DNA from: Xanthostigma xanthostigma
Taxonomy: Eukaryota > Arthropoda > Insecta > Raphidioptera > Raphidiidae
Direction: 5' to 3'
DNA: 64,000 bases
Assembly (NCBI GenBank): GCA_963575645.1
Contig: OY754464.1
Location: 72,638,948-72,702,947, forward strand
Every line of letters starts with the position of its first letter. Positions within the stretch are counted from its first letter, which is position 1. Below are positions 28,253 to 51,900 of the stretch, in pieces. The position numbers and the translations under genes are program-made. Under the pieces are notes generated by a model. The model made no database searches. It had not been told where the DNA came from and worked only from the letters and a program-made list of their open reading frames with translations.

Positions 28253-38907
<10,655 letters not shown>

Positions 38908-38966: not shown

Positions 38967-38976
38967 TTTAATTAAA
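38967..38976. terminator. Two-way poly(A) signal between MCM4 and MUS81
   Basis: TTTAATTAAA reads ATTAAA on the plus strand (38971-38976) and on the minus strand (38972-38967). It is 64 bp after the MCM4 stop and overlaps the last base of the MUS81 stop. No AATAAA is nearby, so this pair is the best candidate for both 3' ends. Confidence 0.45.
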
Positions 38977-41900
38977 ATTCATTCTCAGTATAAAGTTTAT
39001 ATATGGCATTACTTATTGTTGGCCCAATACATCTTTTTTGAGATTTTATTGAAGATAATAGTTTTTCCCCTTCTTTCGATGTTGTGTTTTTGTATGTTTC
39101 ATATAGTACAGTTGGTGTTGGATATTTTTCAGTAATGGCCGCTGCTTTATCAACGGATATTCCTTTCAGTTGTAACAGCTGTCGTATAAATAATTGATGA
39201 ACTGTTGTGTTCTGAAAAAAAAAATCGAATGCAAAATCATTAAAAAAAAAATTGGTTGTCTGTAAAGTCGGTTTACGGACGATAGTTTTACGTGATAACG
39301 TATTCCGCTCGAATATCATATTTAATAATACATAACCTAAATTTTAGTAGCTGTCAAACTTGGGCCGATCATGCTTCTCTATCGCTTATACTGCGTTCTC
39401 GCTTGCACGCACAGGGTCAGGCGGAACGTTACACTTTTTCGTGCGTGCAGCTGGTGTTTCATCAATTTATAAGACGTTATCACGTCAAAAATATGTGTTG
39501 GTCAAAAATAATCACGACTGTATTTTCTGTACTAACCTTTCCTTTTCTCGCTCCTGCATTAAATTCCGAAAACAGAAGCAAACGTGCAATTTTCTCTTTA
39601 GGCGATGATTCCGTTAAACTTAACTTGGCGCATCCATGCAACGTTTTATCCTGTCAAAAAGACATTGTAGGTAGATTATGTAACTGAAATTTTATACATA
39701 GTCATGCTGTCTATTAATACAATTAATGACAACTGAAGTCATTATTAATACTTTTTTGCGAGGAAGGTGCTTTAAAAATAATTATACTGATATCTCGAGA
39801 AAACGACCTGACCAATTCAGACGAAATGTTGGTGCACTCGATCTTAAAAAAGCATAACGTGCTTTTTACTTGACTAAGGTATGTTAGAATCGATATTAAT
39901 GCAAGCAAAGCCATGATTATAAAAAACCTATTAAACTTATGATATAATACGCGCCACGAATCTAAAAGGCTGCAAATGCGGGCTTGCACTTGTACAGTCT
40001 GTTGAAAAACTACAAACTTGCAACTCAACAAAACTAAAATAGTAGTAACAACTTGACAATAGCGTACTCGACTGTGTACTTTAAAGCAGGTAAGTGACAA
40101 AGGCAATGAGCGATCACGGCCAATCACCAACGAGCGCACGTTCCGTGCATGTAGCTGGGAAGTGGTGTGAGTATTAATGGCTCTAAAATGTGCCTTTGCG
40201 ACGCTATTTGTGACTAACTTCCGAACCTTTTAGATCTGTGGCGCGTATTATACCTTATTTTCCCACTGGTTACACCCAAGTTCAGCTGGGAAGTAGTAAT
40301 TTTTTTATGGAATCTTGATTTGTATAAAGTGAGGGTGAAAAGTAACAGTATTCTTAAAAAGTTAGTTGATAAATAAAACGCCCCTATATGAAAACAAATG
40401 ACTACACTAAAAAATGTAGGTGTTCAACTATTGCGATTTGACATAGGTGCGGAGTTAAGGCCAAATGTAATGTCGAATCCGCCATTTTCATATATAGTAA
40501 TACTGAAAGCATGTGTTTATGGTTTTAATTTTTATCACCAGATGTCGTACAGTTTTATTTCAAAACCATAGAGATATAAGACTAGAGTACGCGAGTGAGT
40601 CGTGAAAGTGTCTGCAAATCAGACAGAGAACAGTTCCTTATCTCTATGGTAACTAATGATACAAAACAATACTGATTTGAGTAAACGAATATCTGGTTTT
40701 CTGGACTTTCTGCAGCGTTCTCTCTCTTGACTGAGGACACTTTCACTTATGGCAAGCATACGAACTAGCGTACTCTAGTTACTTATATCTCTATGGTCAA
40801 ATCCCAATAAGGAATTTGCACGATTTTTTTACTTTGTTTATTTTAGAAAAACGAAGATAATGAAAACAAATCTGAAATAAAGTTTTTTTAATAGATTTTT
40901 TTATGACAAAATTTTCTGTAAAAAATCCAAAATCATTAGGAGATTTATAATGTTAAAAATTAATAAAAACTTTTACAGGTAGACTTATGGAAAATATGTC
41001 AACCTAGCATGCAAACTGTTCATTTTAATTTTTTGCAAATAACCAAATAATGTCAGCAGTTCCGAAAACTAACTATGTAAAGCATCAATGTCTTACGCAT
41101 ATTTTAATATTTTTTCCAATTTAATTAGGAGACTTTTAATCAATAAAAAAAATTATTAAACATTAGCACTTTTCGATTATGAACTTTTATTGTTGACAAT
41201 TTTAACTGAATTTTCAACTTTTTAATGATTTAATTTTAATTTTTATTACTTCTAATTTCTTTTTTTAATTATTTACTGCAAAAAATATGTAAAATACAGA
41301 AATTTACATAAATTTATTTTTTTTTAAACCTAACTTTGTACAAAAAATTCAAAAGTTAGAAATAATTAATTAATATTAAAAAAATATTTATTTATGCCTT
41401 TATGACAATAATTTATTGCTATCATCGACTTATAACCTTTTGTAAAAATGTATTATGGAAAAGTTCCTATTTAGAATTCGACTTACTTTTGATTGGGACT
41501 GTAACGGATTAACCTCCTTAAGGAATTTATTTTTAAAATTACTCACCGTATATAGTTTAATTAAAAATCTGGTTAATCTGGCGACATATTCCATTGAATT
41601 TCGATGACACGACGTATATTTTACTGTAAAACCATCTTGCACGTCTGTGTTGACTGCAGCTTGAAATAAAGAGGTGATCGGAATTCCAGTGTGTTGATTA
41701 TTTCCATGACTTTCAATTAAATATATTAAGTTTTGCAAGCCGCTTTGTTTCATTCGAAACTTTTGTTCGTAGTATCTGCCATCTTTTATACTCTTACCTG
41801 TAAAGTCAAAATATTATTCAATACTAATCATTGGCAGATATCTAATTGGGGTAATTGCATGGAATTTTTCATGACATTTTTATTATGCAGAACGAAAACA

Positions 41901-44900
41901 TGTAAATTTGTACAACACTCTGAAATCTAATGCCGGCACTTCACATGGCTATTTGTATTTGTGTATTTGGCAAACAATTACCAAGTGTGGAGGGTCTATT
42001 TGACAAAGTGTTGGCCTTATTTGCCTATTTGACAAATAAGGCCAATACCAAATACGCGTTACCGTGCGCTTGTCGGTTTTTCGAGGCACATCAAAGGAGT
42101 CAAAAGTCAAATACGGCAAATAAATCGTCCACACAATGGCTATATTTAGAAGCGCACGCGCCGTGAACCTGTACGGACGTGCAGTATTTTTGTGTCTGTG
42201 CTGTGAGCGAGAACTGGAACAATTACTATTGAAAATGAATTGGGACAATGAAACTGCTAAAATTCCTGGAATTTTGAACCTGCGTTCTGCTGCCAAATGT
42301 TTGTGTGTTTGCTATTTGACTGCCATGTGTGGATGGTCGTATTTGCCTCTATTTGCATGTTTGTCTTGAACGTCATATATTCTGCCAAATACAACAAACA
42401 CCCAATAGCGAACACAAATAGCCATGTGAAGTGCCACCTTTAGATAGATAGATTGTAGTTGTACAGCTAAGATCATCAGCGTCTAATGTTTCTTCTGAGA
42501 GATCTAAAATCTAAGAAGAACTGAACGATTCAAAGAAATCACTTAAGGAGGCGGCTACAATGGATGCGTCTTCACACGAAATTAATGCAGGGATTTAAAT
42601 AGCACCTGTAAATTAACATAAATCAACAAAAATTACCTAAATCGTCCATTCTTTTACGTTCAACAATGTAAGGTAACACAAGTTCTTGTCCGAGTTGATT
42701 TCGGCAAATCCAAGCAAAATCACCAACATTTAAATGACAGACTTCAAACTTTACTTTCAAATGTTCTAATTCAGTTACAGTTACATCATTTTTTCCGTTT
42801 TTTCCTGATGTTTCTTGTGTATCAACCAAAAGAATAATTTCAAATGTGCGCGGATAAAAAATTACACCACTTTCAGTACCCGAAATGCTGGTCTGCGTGC
42901 ACTGATCATCGAGCTTAAAAACTGTATTGCAATGTTGAACTGGTATTTTCGGTTTAAATGTATCCTTAGAAGTTGATGGAATAGGTATATTTTCAATGAA
43001 ATCATTGCGAAATCTGCTTTCATCATTTTCATCCAACTTATTTTTGCTCGAAACGCTGTAATGATCCAGTTCAGGAAATTTGGAAGTATCAGAGTTGAAT
43101 AATCCTTTTTCTAAATATTTTGTACCTGTAAAATTTCTATCGTTTTTGTATAAAGAATTAAAGCGATCAATATTTTCATCAGAAGACACTTCTTCATTTA
43201 ATTGTTTACTTTTAGAAGAGCTGCATAATCCAGTTCCACAAGAGGCATCATCTTCGTTACTGTCACTTGTTTCTTGATACGCGTTGGCGTGTTTTTTTAA
43301 ATATTGCAGGGCAATTCTTTTCTCCTCATAAATCAAATTATCTTCGCTATTACTAGATGAAATGTTTTCTTTGCGCGTACCACACAACAGAGTCTGTTTT
43401 TTAGTCATTGTTTTACTTTTCCTACAAATATCAACATCTCCGTCGCTATCACTGGAAGATATTTTCTCTTTCAACTTTTTTCTTGAACGGATTTTACTAT
43501 TGTATTTTAATATCTGTTTTCTTTTGCGTATTACATCAATATTAAGTTCATCTGTATCACTATCACTTGATAATGCATCACTCTTTGAATTTCTTTTACT
43601 ATCTGACGGAACTCCGTCACCATAAATCAAATTGAAATCATCTTTATCATTGTCTATTATCTGTTCAATATGTCTTTGGTTACCATTGGAAAATATGCAT
43701 GTACCGATTTCATCATCATTTCCCGTAATTTTATCAGCATTTAAATTCACGCCATAATCAGAAAATGGGGGATCGTTACAACTGAACATTTCATTGGTTT
43801 TCCTAACAACCGGTTGAGTACATAAGAAATCTTCATCCGAATCAGAATATCTTTTTGATTTTAACATGTCTTTATCATTTTCATTATCGCTATCTATCAC
43901 ACAAATTTCCATTTCTTTTTTGCAATCGCTGCTTACAATGGTAGAATAAGTTTGGAACGCGTTGTACTTACTATATTTTTGTATCAAGTCATGTATGTTT
44001 TTGGTTTTTGAAATCGGAGCATCGGTCATGTATTCAGGTATTTTATTATTCATATTGTTTGTGTTTAAATCTTGCTCTTTCAGACATTCCGTACTGTTTT
44101 TTTCGTTAATATTATAATAAAAATTAATAGCTGCGTCCATGCCTTTATCAGTTAACGAATAACAGGATGGTGAATTCTGTATCGAAACTAATCCTTCGTT
44201 AATTAAAGATTCTATTGAGTTAATATTATCACAAGATTCCAGCAAAGTGATTATTTCTTGTTTGGAGGTATAACCGCGATAATGTTCTTTTTGACTTTCT
44301 TTGAATAACAGGATAAGTATCGCAGACTTCTGATTATCGATTTGTATTTTTTGATCATTATTTATAGTATTTACTTCTGTACTGGTATTTAATTGTTCAC
44401 ATACGGTCATGTGTTCATTTCTGAACGGAGATCGAAAACTATCATTTACATCAACATTTTCTATTGCGTCATCTGAATCAACATTTATCATTACATGCTT
44501 ATTTCCAGAACTGCTGAAATCTTCTTCTTCTTCCGATTTGTTTTCATCCGGATTGATTGCCGTAGTTGCATTGCATAATCTAGAAGCGATGTCTCTGCCT
44601 TCATTAGTTAGAGAAAACTTTGCTGGTGAACTTTTACGTGAAACTAATCCTTTGGAAATTAATATGCTCATAGAAGACCACGCCGTATAAAATGAACCGG
44701 GATCAGATTTAGTGAACGATTTATCGCAATGATGTTTCGCTTTGTTAATAATTTCATTTTTCGACATATATCCAGCATAATTTTCCGTCTTGCTTTCTTC
44801 ATACAAAGCAATTAGTATCGCATATCCTCCAGATCGCCATGTCGGCACGTATTGTTTTGTTTTAGACGTGTTCAATTTTTTCTTCCCTTTAGATGGTGTT

Positions 44901-45622
44901 TGTTTTTCCAGATCTGAATGCTTTCGTTTATTTTTTACGTTATCTTTTTCGGTTGATTTTTTATTTTCTGATAAATTTTCATTTTCTGTATACAACTTAA
45001 ATGCAACTGATATTCCTTGGTCAGTTAACGAATACTGACCGAAAGTATCATTAATCAAGCCGTCTAGTGTTAATTTCTCCAACACAGACGTTAATGATAT
45101 AGTATTTTTGGAATTTGATTCAACAAGTGGTTTGTCACAAAGCTGTTTAGATAAATCAATAATTTCATCTCGTAACACATAACCACGATAATTTTCCTTC
45201 TGGCTTTCTATTAATAATGTTATAAGCACTGAATTTTCTTCAGAATATTTTATTCGGATCTCATCTTTCTTTTCAACCACTGTACTTCTGCGTCTTGGTT
45301 TTTGCTTTTTTCCATTTTCAGTAATTGCAATATTTTCACTATTAGAAAGAAATAAATGTGGTTTACATTTTCTATATTCATCTAGTTTATTATCCAACGC
45401 TGCACATACATGCTTACCAAAACCCTCTAGTATTATACATTCTTTACCACTTTCCAATAATAGTGGATATTTTCTTAAAGATTTCAATGCCTTACCGAAA
45501 GTATATTGAGATTGTAAACCTTTTTCAGCCGCTTCTTTTTGCCATTCTTCTAGCCACGTCTCAAATAACGGATTTGGTCGTTTTATTTTAACTGTAATGC
45601 GATTTTTCTTTGAAGATGACAT
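38972..45622 (-). CDS. MUS81: Crossover junction endonuclease MUS81, enlarged
   Basis: Catalytic subunit of the MUS81-EME1 nuclease that cuts stalled forks, flaps and nicked Holliday junctions in the nucleus. Four exons: 45622-42637, 41797-41547, 39650-39537 and 39211-38972; 1196 residues, about twice human (551). The N-terminal helix-hairpin domain is at about 12-90. Three winged-helix units follow at about 125-212, 260-350 and 430-505, each with Y-x-GY and YSLT/FSLT marks; the middle one has the TWRSGG and PGSFYTAW features of the normal single domain. A long acidic Ser/Asp/Asn-rich part (about 510-910) carries many SDSD clusters. The ERCC4 nuclease core spans exons 1-2: LLVDTQET, GDFAW and VERKRMDDL (ERKxxD intact). 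The C-terminal (HhH)2 domain spans exons 3-4 (LFSEFNAGA, LFIRQLLQLKGIS). Introns hold several MITEs. It is head to head with MOK. Confidence 0.95.
39251..39515. mobile_element. MITE with CTGTAAAGTCGG end, in MUS81 intron 3
   Basis: Starts TGGTTGTCTGTAAAGTCGG and has a weak complement near ACGTTATCACGTCAAAAAT at the right. It matches 35541-35738 inverted. It ends about 20 bp from exon 3. Confidence 0.65.
39943..40252. mobile_element. MITE in MUS81 intron 2
   Basis: TATAATACGCGCCACGAATC at the left and GATCTGTGGCGCGTATTATA at the right; arms of about 30 bp. Duplication unclear. Confidence 0.65.
40567..40795. mobile_element. Short P-like MITE (CATAGAG family), copy 1
   Basis: CATAGAGATATAAGACTAGA and CTAGTTACTTATATCTCTATG ends. 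The flanks TTCAAAAC and GTCAAATC agree at 6 of 8. It lies in MUS81 intron 2. A copy at 55386 carries another element inside. Confidence 0.65.
40811..41517. mobile_element. TTAA-type element, copy 1
   Basis: The right end GGATTAACCTCC is followed by TTAA. The left end is decayed (GGAATTTGCACG). It matches the element at 60352-61050 in opposite orientation. It lies in MUS81 intron 2 and ends 30 bp from exon 2. Confidence 0.65.
41931..42439. mobile_element. Harbinger-type MITE with MADF-like start, copy 1
   Basis: TGCCGGCACTTCACATGGCT at the left and AGCCATGTGAAGTGCCACC at the right. The interior repeats ATTTG words. An ATG at 42235 opens MNWDNET. It lies in MUS81 intron 1. TAA and TTA flank it, so the TWA duplication is only suggestive. 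Confidence 0.65.
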
Positions 45623-45949: not shown

Positions 45950-48900
45950 ATGAATTCTTCATTTACTAAAAGTAAATAGTCTTATTTCAAGTTTTCACCG
46001 GACATACGGTCTGGAAAACATAATAATAATTGTATCTGAAAATTTTCAGAATACAAAGTGCTCGAAAAAATTGGAGAAGGTTCTTTCTCTGACGTATTAA
46101 AGTGTCAAAATCGTGAAACAGAATCAATGTATGCGGCAAAGAGATTGAAAAAGACCTATCGTAGGTATGTTTTTCAAATACATTTATTTTTAGATTAAAT
46201 AAACCATTCTACTAAAAATCTGTTGAGAATTCAACATAAATCAATTAATAATAGTTGTCTCGATTCACAAAATTATCTTTATTTAAAACAACGAATAGAT
46301 AAGTGAAAATACTTTTTACGGGCAAGAATAAAATATTTTCTTTGTTTATATTCATAAAAAATTTAAAATAAACTACGAATGATTTATTTCAGTATGCAAG
46401 AAGTATACGATTGTCCAGAAATAATAGCAATGAGAAAAGTTTCAAATCATCCAAATATTTTACATATTATCGAAACACATTAGTAAGTAGAATAAACATT
46501 TTTATAACTATAATTTAGTGGCCTTTTCTCAATAATTTTATTCGCTCTATACTCCTCTTTTGAATTAAACTCGTAAACAATATATATTCGAAATTATTGA
46601 GTTTCAAGTTTTGTGCTGAGAATTAGGCTTTTGAAAAAAAAATAATTATCGATTTTTTTTATTGTATTTTAAAACTTTATTATAAATAATATTGATAATC
46701 GATGTGAAAAACTTCCAAAAAACTTTTTTTAAATTAATTATAAGCAATTTAAAATGGATAAAATATTAAAAAAAATCACGTGACTGCAAACGCACTAAAA
46801 TTGTTTTTGACAGTTGTGACGTCATAATGGTAAAATGTATATATGCAGTATACTATCAATGGCTTCTACATGTGTATTGACTAAAACATTATGACGTCAC
46901 ATTATGTTCGGGAAATGTCGGCGCGTTCTCGGAACTGGGTACAAAAATTTATTTTTAATTTGATATAACTTTTGAATTATAACGAAAATAAAAAAAGAAC
47001 AATAGTTTTGTTATAAAACTTATATACGATCTTTCCATTTATGACAAAAAAAAATTCATTCAAAAGCTCAATTATGTAAGTATAAACAAGGAATTAAAAA
47101 TGTTTATTTTTTTAGTGATCAGTTTCCAGGTAAAGTAACGCTCATTTTTGAACTCATGGATATGAGCGTTTATGATTTCATTAAAACTCGTAAAAGGTTC
47201 GTTTTTTTAATAATTGTTGTGTTTATTCTATTTTTTAATCAAAATCCAAATAATACGAAATACTACACTTGCAGATGTCTTTTGGAAAACAAAGTAAAAA
47301 ATTTTACTTTCCAATTACTAAAAGGACTTGAGCATTTACATAAAAGCGGTATATTCCATAGGGATTTAAAACCGGAAAATATTTTAATCAAATCACAATC
47401 GTCGGAAGGCACTAGGAATTTCTTCTCCCCTAAGGTAAAAAGAAAATAAATTTTGCATTTTATTTAATTTCATATCAATATATAAGAATATGCAGCTGTA
47501 TCGTCGTACGACTGAGCGCAGTGCCAAATTATCAACTATCAAAGTGGTCACCTGCCCATTGACTTCTTTTAGGGCCCCCCAAAAGGACGTTTTGTCGCCA
47601 CCGCCGTTTAGAAAAATCACAGCACATTTTTTTATGCACTTATATTAACTTTGAATACTAGGCTAATTGTTGGAATTTTATTTGATACTAGCGGTCCCGC
47701 CCGGTTTTACCCGGGTGTAAAAGAACGAATGGGGAAGGGAGGAACATGAGTACATACATTCATCTTAGTTTACCGAGATGAATGTTGTGTCCAAATTTCA
47801 TGATGATCGGAGTTACCGTTCAAAAGTTTTTGTCGATAAAAAGCAGTATTTATACTTTTTTTAACTAATAATTTTTTTTAAAATTAATTAAATAAAATTA
47901 AAATAAATTTAAATGTAAGCCTTAGAAGAAAGCAATGAAGAAAATAAAAAAAAAATAAAAATATATTCGCCCAACATAGGGCTCGAACTCACGACCCTGA
48001 TATTGACAGTCGTGTGCTCTACCGATTGAGCTAGCCGGTGTTGTATTCTGGCAACGCTAATATGAGTATATTTAGTTAGTGCATTTCACCTGAATAGAAG
48101 CTTATTTTTGAGATACATTTTGCAACATTTTTCATTATTGCTCCGCTCCTAATGGTCGTAGCCTGATTTTATATAATAGCCTATAGCCTTCCTCGATAAA
48201 TGGGCTATCCAACAAAAAAAAATTTTTTCAATTTGAACCAGTAGTTCCTGAGATTAGCGCGTTCAAACAAACAAACAAACTCTTCAGCTTTATATATTAG
48301 TATAGATTAGGAGATAATTTGCAACGGGTTCCGATATTGCGATTGGGTAGGGGCCATGACAAGATTCAATCCGGCACTGACCGCTGGATCCCTAACTATA
48401 TATTATATATTTAAATTTTTAGAATGAAATCATAAAAATAGGTGACCTTGGATCGATACGAGGCATATACAGTAAACCTCCTTATACTGAATATATTTCA
48501 ACGAGATGGTATAGATCTCCCGAGTGCTTACTGACCAATGGTTTTTACGGTCCTAAAATGGACGTCTGGGCAGTTGGATGCGTCTTTTATGAACTTTTAA
48601 CGTAACGTATTATACTTAGTTGTCTATTTAGGCCCGATTTTCGCAGTGAAAATTCGAAAAAATTGAAATAACAGAAAATATGAAATAAAATTAATAACAG
48701 AACAAGTGAGGACATCTTAGATAACGAACGTTAAACGAATAATTATTATTTTCAGACTTAAACCACTTTTTCCTGGATCAAATGAATTAGACCAAATAAA
48801 TAAAATTCACAACATTTTAGGAACACCTAGCTCAAGAGTTTTAAATAAATTTAAAAAACAGTAAGTGATCAACTGTTAAAGTAATTTTATTGAAATAAAT

Positions 48901-51900
48901 AATTATTTGGAAGTTTTTTTTAAGCAAATCGCGAAATTGCGAATATTTTTTTCCATCGTACGATGGATCTGGTTTCACCGTTTTAATACCGACTGTTAGT
49001 GATCCGGGCCGAGATATTCTCAAACAAATGCTTACTTACGACCCCGACCATCGAGCAAACGTTCGTAGACTTTTGGAGCACCGATACTTTCTCGATTATC
49101 GTGATTTGGACGATCACGCTAAGCGGAGAAGATCACAATCGGAAACACCGCCCGTAAATAAAAGTCCGTTTACCGGTGACTGGAGAGTGCCTTTGTACTA
49201 TAATTATTTGAGCCCTGAAGCAAAACAAAAACGTGCCAAGGTCTATTATATAATAATTAATAACTCGAATATTTTTCTTACCTCTAAAAACTACTAAAAT
49301 TATCCTCAACAATAATTTTATTCATAACACATTTAGCTATAGACGCTAATGACCTCAGATGTCGAGCGTCTATAATATATAATCTCTCTCTCTCACACAA
49401 ACCTTTAGCTGATGAGATACAGAAGAGGTTTCCATTGAATATAGTTGCAACTTCATAGTCAGTAAAGTAACCAATAAATCATATATATTAATACGCTAAG
49501 GTTTAAGATGTTTGCCTCCCTTTTTAGAAAAAACCTCACAATCTCTCCACATAAATTATACCTACATCATTTTACAGATAATTGCTTGCTCTACTGACAT
49601 CGACAACTAAAAAATTTATTATTGCTTTTGTTTTTGTAAATTAATTAAAATACAGCAACGCTGAACAACGTCTGCCACCTGACGGCTTTAATTTTGAAAC
49701 AACGTCAACACTTCGATCTGTCATCTGACCTTCATATTGTAATACAACAGACACAATACTGCATACTGCCATCTGACGGCTTTAATTTTGAAACAGCGAA
49801 CAACGCTGAACAACGTCACAGCAATGCGGCAAAATGCCATCTGACGGCTTAGCTCAACGCTCTTGCTACTTGCGCCTTTATATGACAATTTTAGTAAAAT
49901 ATTTCTTCGATCTGTCATCTGAGCTTCATATTGTAATACAACAAAAAGAAGAACGTTATAAGCAGTGTGCAAAATTAGAAACGAATTGAATACGTGCAAT
50001 CATGTTTAAAAAATAATTTTGTAAAGTGATAATTATTATACTTATTTAGTGCGAATAATTCGCACAGGTCACACTAGTACTACTTATTGTTTTTAAAATA
50101 ATTTAATTATTAGGCGGCCATCAAAAATAAGTTTTTCTAAAACTCAAAGTTTTCTTATTTTGATTACAGAATCAAGGAATGTTTATGGACATCAATTCAG
50201 AACGAGAATTAAAAATTACCAATTTCCAAAACTCCGGCAAAACAAAATTTAAATCTAAAAGCGGATCGTTAAATGTGCTTAAACCTGACAGCAAGCAAAA
50301 AAATAGTATTGCAACACAAATAAAAACGTTACCTGAACTTATAAAAGTCAAATCTGTTGGGAAAAATTCGCATAAATCACTCCATGCATCCGTCGCCAAA
50401 GTAGAACTCAAAACTGCAGTTCAATCCAAATTAAATACTTTAAAATCTTATGCGAAAACCAATGCAAACAAACTGTCGCTTCAGTCTATGAATGACTCCA
50501 AGGGTTCTCAATTAAAAACTTCCAGGTATTTTTTTACAATTCGATTTAAAATACTTTTATAGATGCTAATATTATAAAGAGGTATAATGTAGTTTAATAT
50601 AATATGTTCACACGGTGTTAAAAGCACAATTGACAGCTGTGTTTTCTTTCTTTCTCCCTCTCTCTCTCTTTAATATGCTGCAGCACATGCGCCAACTGTA
50701 GGCCGCACCAAAAATCATATTGTAATGCATTTCCGCTGCATTCACAGAATTACTGCCCATACCGAGAGCTAAAAATATGTTACACATCAAAAATTCTGAT
50801 AATACTGTCTTGTCGCGGTTGATTATTAAACAACTTTTAAGATAGCAAGACTCCAATTTGCGATCCACATCCCTAATACAACAATAAAAAAATTCCAGCT
50901 AATTGGGCGACGGGCGGGGCCATTCCAACTTCAAAATGTTGACAATAATAAAGAAAATAAAAGTTCTGATATCGCGTTAGGTGACGCGGGTAATGGCTAG
51001 TATTCAATATGATATTTGCTATTCTTTATTACCATGGTTACCTACATAATATGTTCACGTCATGTAAAAATTAATCAAAGCATTCTTAACCAGTTTATTT
51101 CTGACAGATCTACAAAACAAAAGAACAGTTGATTTTTTCTATTTTTAAAATATTTCCAAAACTATAAAGTTTAAAAAAAATTCGATCAATCCTTTCATGA
51201 AAAATGTATAGAATAAGCCGTTATGAAAAGTATACCATTATTAAATTAAAAAAACCGTTATAACATATATCTCTTCTGCGCATGCGCCGATTCTCCACAA
51301 AAACAATAGAGCTCTTCATATTTGCATATCAAAAATTCTCCCAAAATTTGGTTTCAATCCGCTCATCCGTTTGACCTGTATCGTGCTCACAGACAAACAG
51401 ACGCTCAGAGTTTTTCCAAAAATATGTTTTTTGGATTCAGGGGACCTCAAAACCACAAGATATTGTAAAATTTTGAAAAGTGTTTTTTGCCCTTAACTAA
51501 TACCATTTCCCACTTGTGGGTTGTAATGGTAAAATTAATGTTTGTGGACGAAATAATGCACAAAAAATTCCCCAACTCTATAATTTTGACGTTTTTTTTT
51601 AGTTACGTATTACATTACAAAACAAAAAAAGTTTCGGACCCTAATACAGTTGATAAGACCCTTCCATCTTCTGGTGGAAATAAATATCTGTCAAAATCAT
51701 TCGTGCTGCCTCGTCGCTCTTCTGGTAAATCAACTCTTGAACCGATAAATGAAGTGTCCGAACAAATAAATTCCCTGAGATCTTCAGCAGCTAAGCAACG
51801 ATCTGTTTCGAGACAAGAAGAGTTGGTTTCGTTGAAATTTCGACCGCCCGCTCGTAAAAATACCCGTACGAAATTATTACCACCTTTAAATAAATCACTA

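Follow-up and report, generated by a model that had tools for sequence, protein, structure and literature searches.

The window, a stretch of 64,000 nucleotides from Xanthostigma xanthostigma (contig OY754464.1, positions 72,638,948 to 72,702,947), contains a complete gene for MUS81, a nuclease that cuts branched DNA during repair and in meiosis and whose activity has to be restrained. The gene lies on the minus strand of the window and comprises four exons, joined in frame by GT-AG splice sites as predicted from the DNA, which encode 1,196 residues ending in a TAA stop codon. Head to head with it on the plus strand is a protein kinase gene at about 46050-49300 (extent by eye), where Pfam Pkinase was identified at 47045-47446; judged by eye, this kinase is presumably MOK-like. 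Exons of MCM4, bearing the Pfam domains MCM_OB and MCM_lid, occupy positions 31371-36220 of the plus strand. Among solved structures, the first MCM4 exon is closest to chain 4 of 6raw, which we take to be a Drosophila protein.

Coding exon 1 of MUS81 (42637..45622, minus strand) carries residues 1-995 plus one base, runs to the donor TAG/GTAATT and contains no stop codon in its coding frame, where 83.9 would be expected from base composition. It begins with a helix-hairpin-helix (HhH) domain, residues 16-84 (45371..45577, minus), identified by Pfam HHH_8 (E=1.2e-16) and similar to the solved MUS81 HhH domains 2kp7 (E=8.5e-18), 6vwb and 7bu5. Its last part is the start of the ERCC4 nuclease domain (42637..42877, minus; Pfam ERCC4 E=1.4e-7), which matches the MUS81 structures 2ziu, 9f98, 2zix and 4p0p and in which VERKRMDDL is read directly, ERK..D being the catalytic motif of the nuclease domain. 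We take 6vwb, 7bu5, 2zix, 4p0p and 9f98 to be parts of human MUS81. The remainder of the nuclease domain is in exon 2 (41547..41797, minus), placed by its splice sites and by positions 61-140 of PF02732, over the cut-off, so that this family is found in both exons. Exon 3 (39537..39650, minus) was identified from its splice sites and the continuing frame, and exon 4 (38972..39211, minus) contains the C-terminal (HhH)2 region, with positions 1-74 of PF21292 (EME1-MUS81_C) over the cut-off, and the final TAA. The sequence-only reading had named this gene MUS81 and given it about double the usual length. HHH_8, ERCC4 with VERKRMDDL and PF21292 bear out the name, and the length agrees, human MUS81 having 551 residues. 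As far as the sequence can tell, the gene is intact-looking and single-copy. MUS81 characteristically acts as a heterodimer with EME1, and a candidate for this partner, a locus also bearing PF21292, was found on the same contig (C1:80386064-80386619).

The part of exon 1 that lies between the HhH and nuclease domains encodes three related units, whose boundaries were drawn by us around the ranges of the sequence-only reading. All three lie on the minus strand: unit 1 is an acidic winged helix of residues 123-216 (44975..45256), unit 2 is a canonical basic winged helix of residues 256-352 (44567..44857) and unit 3 is again acidic, residues 425-510 (44093..44350). Each was scanned separately against Pfam, and MUS81-like_WH (PF21136, curated cut-off of 27 bits) was the top family for every one of them. 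Unit 2 clearly passes the cut-off (85.2 bits, E=4.1e-24), unit 3 passes it narrowly (28.3 bits, E=2.3e-6) and unit 1 falls short of it (22.8 bits, E=1.2e-4). In a six-frame search of the genome with the same profile, unit 3 reached 24.1 bits alone and 27.8 with its neighbours (E 0.026), and unit 1 reached 21.7 bits (E 0.127).

The core shared by the three units is formed by an LI.L..ES helix, a Y.GY turn and a [YF]SLT strand. Helix 4 starts with T-x-x-G in every unit, as TDQG in unit 1, TNEG in unit 2 and TDKG in unit 3, and this motif belongs to the reported MUS81 fingerprint (PMC3834828). In unit 3 the loop before helix 3 is shortened. Pairwise identity is 31% between units 1 and 2, 40% between units 1 and 3 and 45% between units 2 and 3, with local alignment scores of 120, 112 and 126, respectively; the 3,000 shuffles made for each pair never attained the observed scores and peaked at 58. 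The proposal that three units share the helix, the GY turn and the Y/FSLT strand is thus upheld by motifs, alignments and Pfam, the middle one is indeed the best match to the winged helix and the outer two, read as its duplicates, are related to it and to each other beyond all shuffles.

Comparison of single sequences with solved structures (phmmer) gave 2mc3, the human MUS81 winged helix, for unit 2 (E=6.2e-9, query residues 3-95 aligned) and for unit 3 at just E=0.98, with no match for unit 1. The outer units were then modelled with AlphaFold2 from a three-row alignment, unit 2 not being modelled by itself. Both models have the H-H-H-E-E-H order of a winged helix, with a mean pLDDT of 83.7 for unit 1 and of 80.1 for unit 3, where one of the five models had a mean of 57.8. 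The best Foldseek match was 2mc3 in both cases: among 1,182 matches at E<=10 for unit 1 (E 1.1e-3, TM by query 0.73, rmsd 5.1) and among 1,042 for unit 3 (E 1.5e-3, TM by query 0.74, rmsd 2.2), no match of either unit being at E<=0.001. These models support the assignment and are not an independent proof of it, since unit 2 was included in both alignments. Sequence or predicted fold places all three units in the MUS81 winged-helix family, and the outer ones are predicted to fold as had been proposed.

The units differ in the residues that would face DNA. Mutation of W182, R186, R191, R196 or R202 of human MUS81 lowers DNA binding, as reported by Fadden and colleagues (PMC3834828), and the equivalent positions were located with the gap-free helix 3 and the SLT motif as guides. 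In unit 2 they are occupied by W, S, K, R and K, four of the five being kept or conservative and R186 being replaced by Ser. None of the five is kept in unit 1 (T, E, D, a gap and Q) or in unit 3 (I, E, E, I and C), and in both of them the positions of R186 and R191 are acidic. The predicted pI is 4.62 for unit 1, 9.45 for unit 2 and 4.97 for unit 3, and that reported for the human domain is 10.0 (PMC3834828). A Tyr-x-Pro arm before helix 1 was identified only in unit 2, and truncating the region before helix 1 is reported to cut DNA binding of the human domain (PMC3834828). From its contact residues, pI and arm, unit 2 therefore looks like a DNA reader, and the corresponding face of the outer units appears charge-inverted. 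Winged helices can contact DNA by other faces too. With no mapped contact kept, acidic residues at two of the positions and an acidic pI, the outer units are nevertheless unlikely to be extra readers of duplex DNA, and the two additional copies probably do something other than contact DNA.

A DNA trace of the duplication appears to be left in the D1 repeat of 45 nt, of which a DNA repeat search identified one copy per unit: the reference copy in unit 3 (44117..44161), a copy in unit 2 that is 62% identical to it (44573..44617) and another in unit 1 that is 71% identical (44990..45034). In the pairs 1-3 and 2-3, agreement is higher at codon positions 1 and 2 than at position 3, and in the pair 1-2 this is true of position 2 only. 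The dN/dS ratios between units (NG86), about 0.41 (1-2), 0.25 (1-3) and 0.33 (2-3), are rough since dS is 1.6-2.2, near saturation. Residues are hydrophobic in all three units at 21 of 77 gap-free columns, where 5,000 shuffles gave 5.3 on average and 12 at most, an excess of which part is expected because shuffling breaks an alignment made on these very sequences. The hydrophobic core and the dN/dS ratios may be taken as signs that the fold was under selection.

Units and nuclease are separated by a linker of about 400 residues (511-915; 42878..44092, minus), which is Ser/Asp-rich by composition. The acidic linker noted in the sequence-only reading does exist and is mildly acidic, with a pI of 5.1 for residues 511-910. 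Four motif patterns were counted over these same residues against 2,000 shuffles. The only one standing out was the acidic CK2-type pattern, with 7 sites versus 2.3 in shuffles (24 of 2,000 reach 7); its acidic Ser clusters include SDSDED, SDSDTD and SDSDGD. Within residues 511-910 the loose CK2 pattern was not enriched (16 versus 12.9; 377 of 2,000 shuffles reach 16), the first SIM pattern had no site and the second had a single one, VIDSD at 575 (55 of 2,000 shuffles reach one), which we assume to resemble a SUMO-interacting motif. These counts are to be read as leads only.

The order of the parts is that of human MUS81: HhH, winged helix, linker, ERCC4 nuclease with ERK..D and C-terminal (HhH)2 region. 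The differences are the number of winged helices, three versus one, the acidic outer two without the DNA contacts and the linker of about 400 residues. The MUS81 proteins of fruit fly and nematode belong to the same gene family, but are reported to be without a conserved winged-helix region (PMC3834828), whereas the Xanthostigma xanthostigma protein has three. Bacterial winged helices of the DtxR/MntR type have the general fold in common with unit 3 without being family members; DtxR, IdeR and MntR chains were among the Foldseek matches listed for this unit (best 50 of 1,042), and the human MUS81 domain is reported to come closest to MnTR (PMC3834828). Both outer units, however, match the MUS81 structure 2mc3 best. 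Among the titles and abstract openings listed in a literature search, none described several winged helices in one MUS81 protein, and the tripled winged helix is a new domain arrangement in a known nuclease.

The explanation we favour, with modest confidence, is a single-copy MUS81 whose winged helix was multiplied by intragenic duplication into a tandem of three, the middle one reading DNA and the outer ones serving as protein-contact or self-regulatory modules. Unit 2 would bind duplex DNA near the junction, like the human domain. The outer units would have been kept for their fold while losing the DNA-reading face and turning acidic. Placed between the nuclease and the HhH domain that binds SLX4, they would most likely act as such modules, a role in which the long Ser/Asp-rich linker could help. 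In human cells the HhH domain of MUS81 binds SLX4 and, as one proposal has it, serves as a self-inhibitory gate that restrains the enzyme until SLX4 binds (PMC5344696), and CK2 phosphorylates Ser87 of MUS81, where a change to alanine lowered co-precipitation of SLX4 (PMC8599992). Effects of the outer units on SLX4 or EME1 regulation are possible. A further reading, in which the acidic units are built-in DNA mimics, is quite unlikely: their charge-inverted recognition helices would bind the basic surfaces with which the enzyme itself contacts DNA (unit 2, HhH or nuclease) and would keep MUS81 inactive until they are released when SLX4 binds or the linker is phosphorylated. The sequence-only reading had seen in units 1 and 3 additional DNA-binding winged helices, through which the choice of substrates could be broadened or altered. 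They do share the family and the predicted fold of a domain that in human MUS81 binds DNA and shifts the incision position (PMC3834828), but neither keeps any of the five mapped contacts, both are acidic at R186 and R191 and in pI, and both are without the Tyr-x-Pro arm, which makes this role unlikely. Decay is also rather unlikely. The weak Pfam scores, the lost DNA contacts and the loop deletion of unit 3 are what functionless leftovers of an internal duplication might look like in an N-terminal half flexible enough to tolerate them; however, the hydrophobic core has been kept (21 columns against 5.3 for the average shuffle), the dN/dS ratios between units stay under 1 and the frame is without stops.

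Exon 1 is deduced from DNA alone, and mature transcripts that drop one or both outer units would leave a MUS81 with one winged helix and make the three-unit form an artefact of the gene model. At thresholds of at least 7 of 9 consensus positions for donors and at least 12 of 15 pyrimidines for acceptors, however, splice-like sites are few in the exon 1 stretch, with three donor-like sites, one of them the true exon end, and two acceptor-like sites. Frames worked by hand from the positions show that donor 214 with acceptor 283 or 1201 shifts the frame, and donor 1652 has no later acceptor within exon 1. At these thresholds, and from DNA and frames worked by hand, no pair of splice-like sites in exon 1 would excise unit 1 or unit 3 while keeping the frame, and the artefact is highly improbable. 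A question of age, compatible with the favoured explanation, is whether the three-unit form is an old and ordinary architecture of the lineage, merely undescribed in papers, and this is quite possible, if somewhat short of an even chance. In pairs with unit 1 the same codon is used at 14 of 28 and 17 of 32 sites, versus 12.7 and 16.0 expected from codon use; the synonymous sites of this unit look saturated relative to the others, and the first duplication therefore does not seem recent. Units 2 and 3, on the other hand, share 22 of 36 codons versus 15.5 expected (P=0.015, one of three pairs, uncorrected), which weakly suggests that their split is the younger one. Whatever its age, a natural MUS81 with a tripled winged helix, two copies of it acidic, would be a ready experiment on the N-terminal regulation of the enzyme, and it would contrast with the fruit flies, in which the domain is reported to be missing (PMC3834828).

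The genome search with PF21136 gave five matches (six candidates scored), three of them being units 1-3. The other two, L007 (E 0.76) and L008 (E 1.29), were rejected as extra copies because they are partial and their open frames are, by eye, without MUS81-like context (1400-1800 for L008). When units 1 and 3 were used as single protein queries, the MUS81 locus was the sole hit among the best candidates scored, and no further winged-helix copy was found in the genome. Among viral contigs, 56 pattern matches yielded no confirmed relative, and neither did the 28 obtained with the nuclease start in a collection of genome contigs without eukaryotes. An NCBIfam search returned nothing useful, and at gathering scores Rfam matched nothing in the window. 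Perfect runs of five TTAGG or TCAGG units were looked for in the whole genome, a 28-contig assembly, and none was found, which is odd for an insect with such telomeres; the ends may be unassembled or simple repeats may have been skipped by the search.

Two minor elements were observed within introns of the window. Intron 1 of MUS81 contains, at 41925-42445, two inverted arms of 35 nt that are 89% complementary and 451 nt apart, a layout as in a small terminal-inverted-repeat element. In an intron of the kinase gene, the stretch at about 47960-48040 has by eye the look of a tRNA-derived short repeat.
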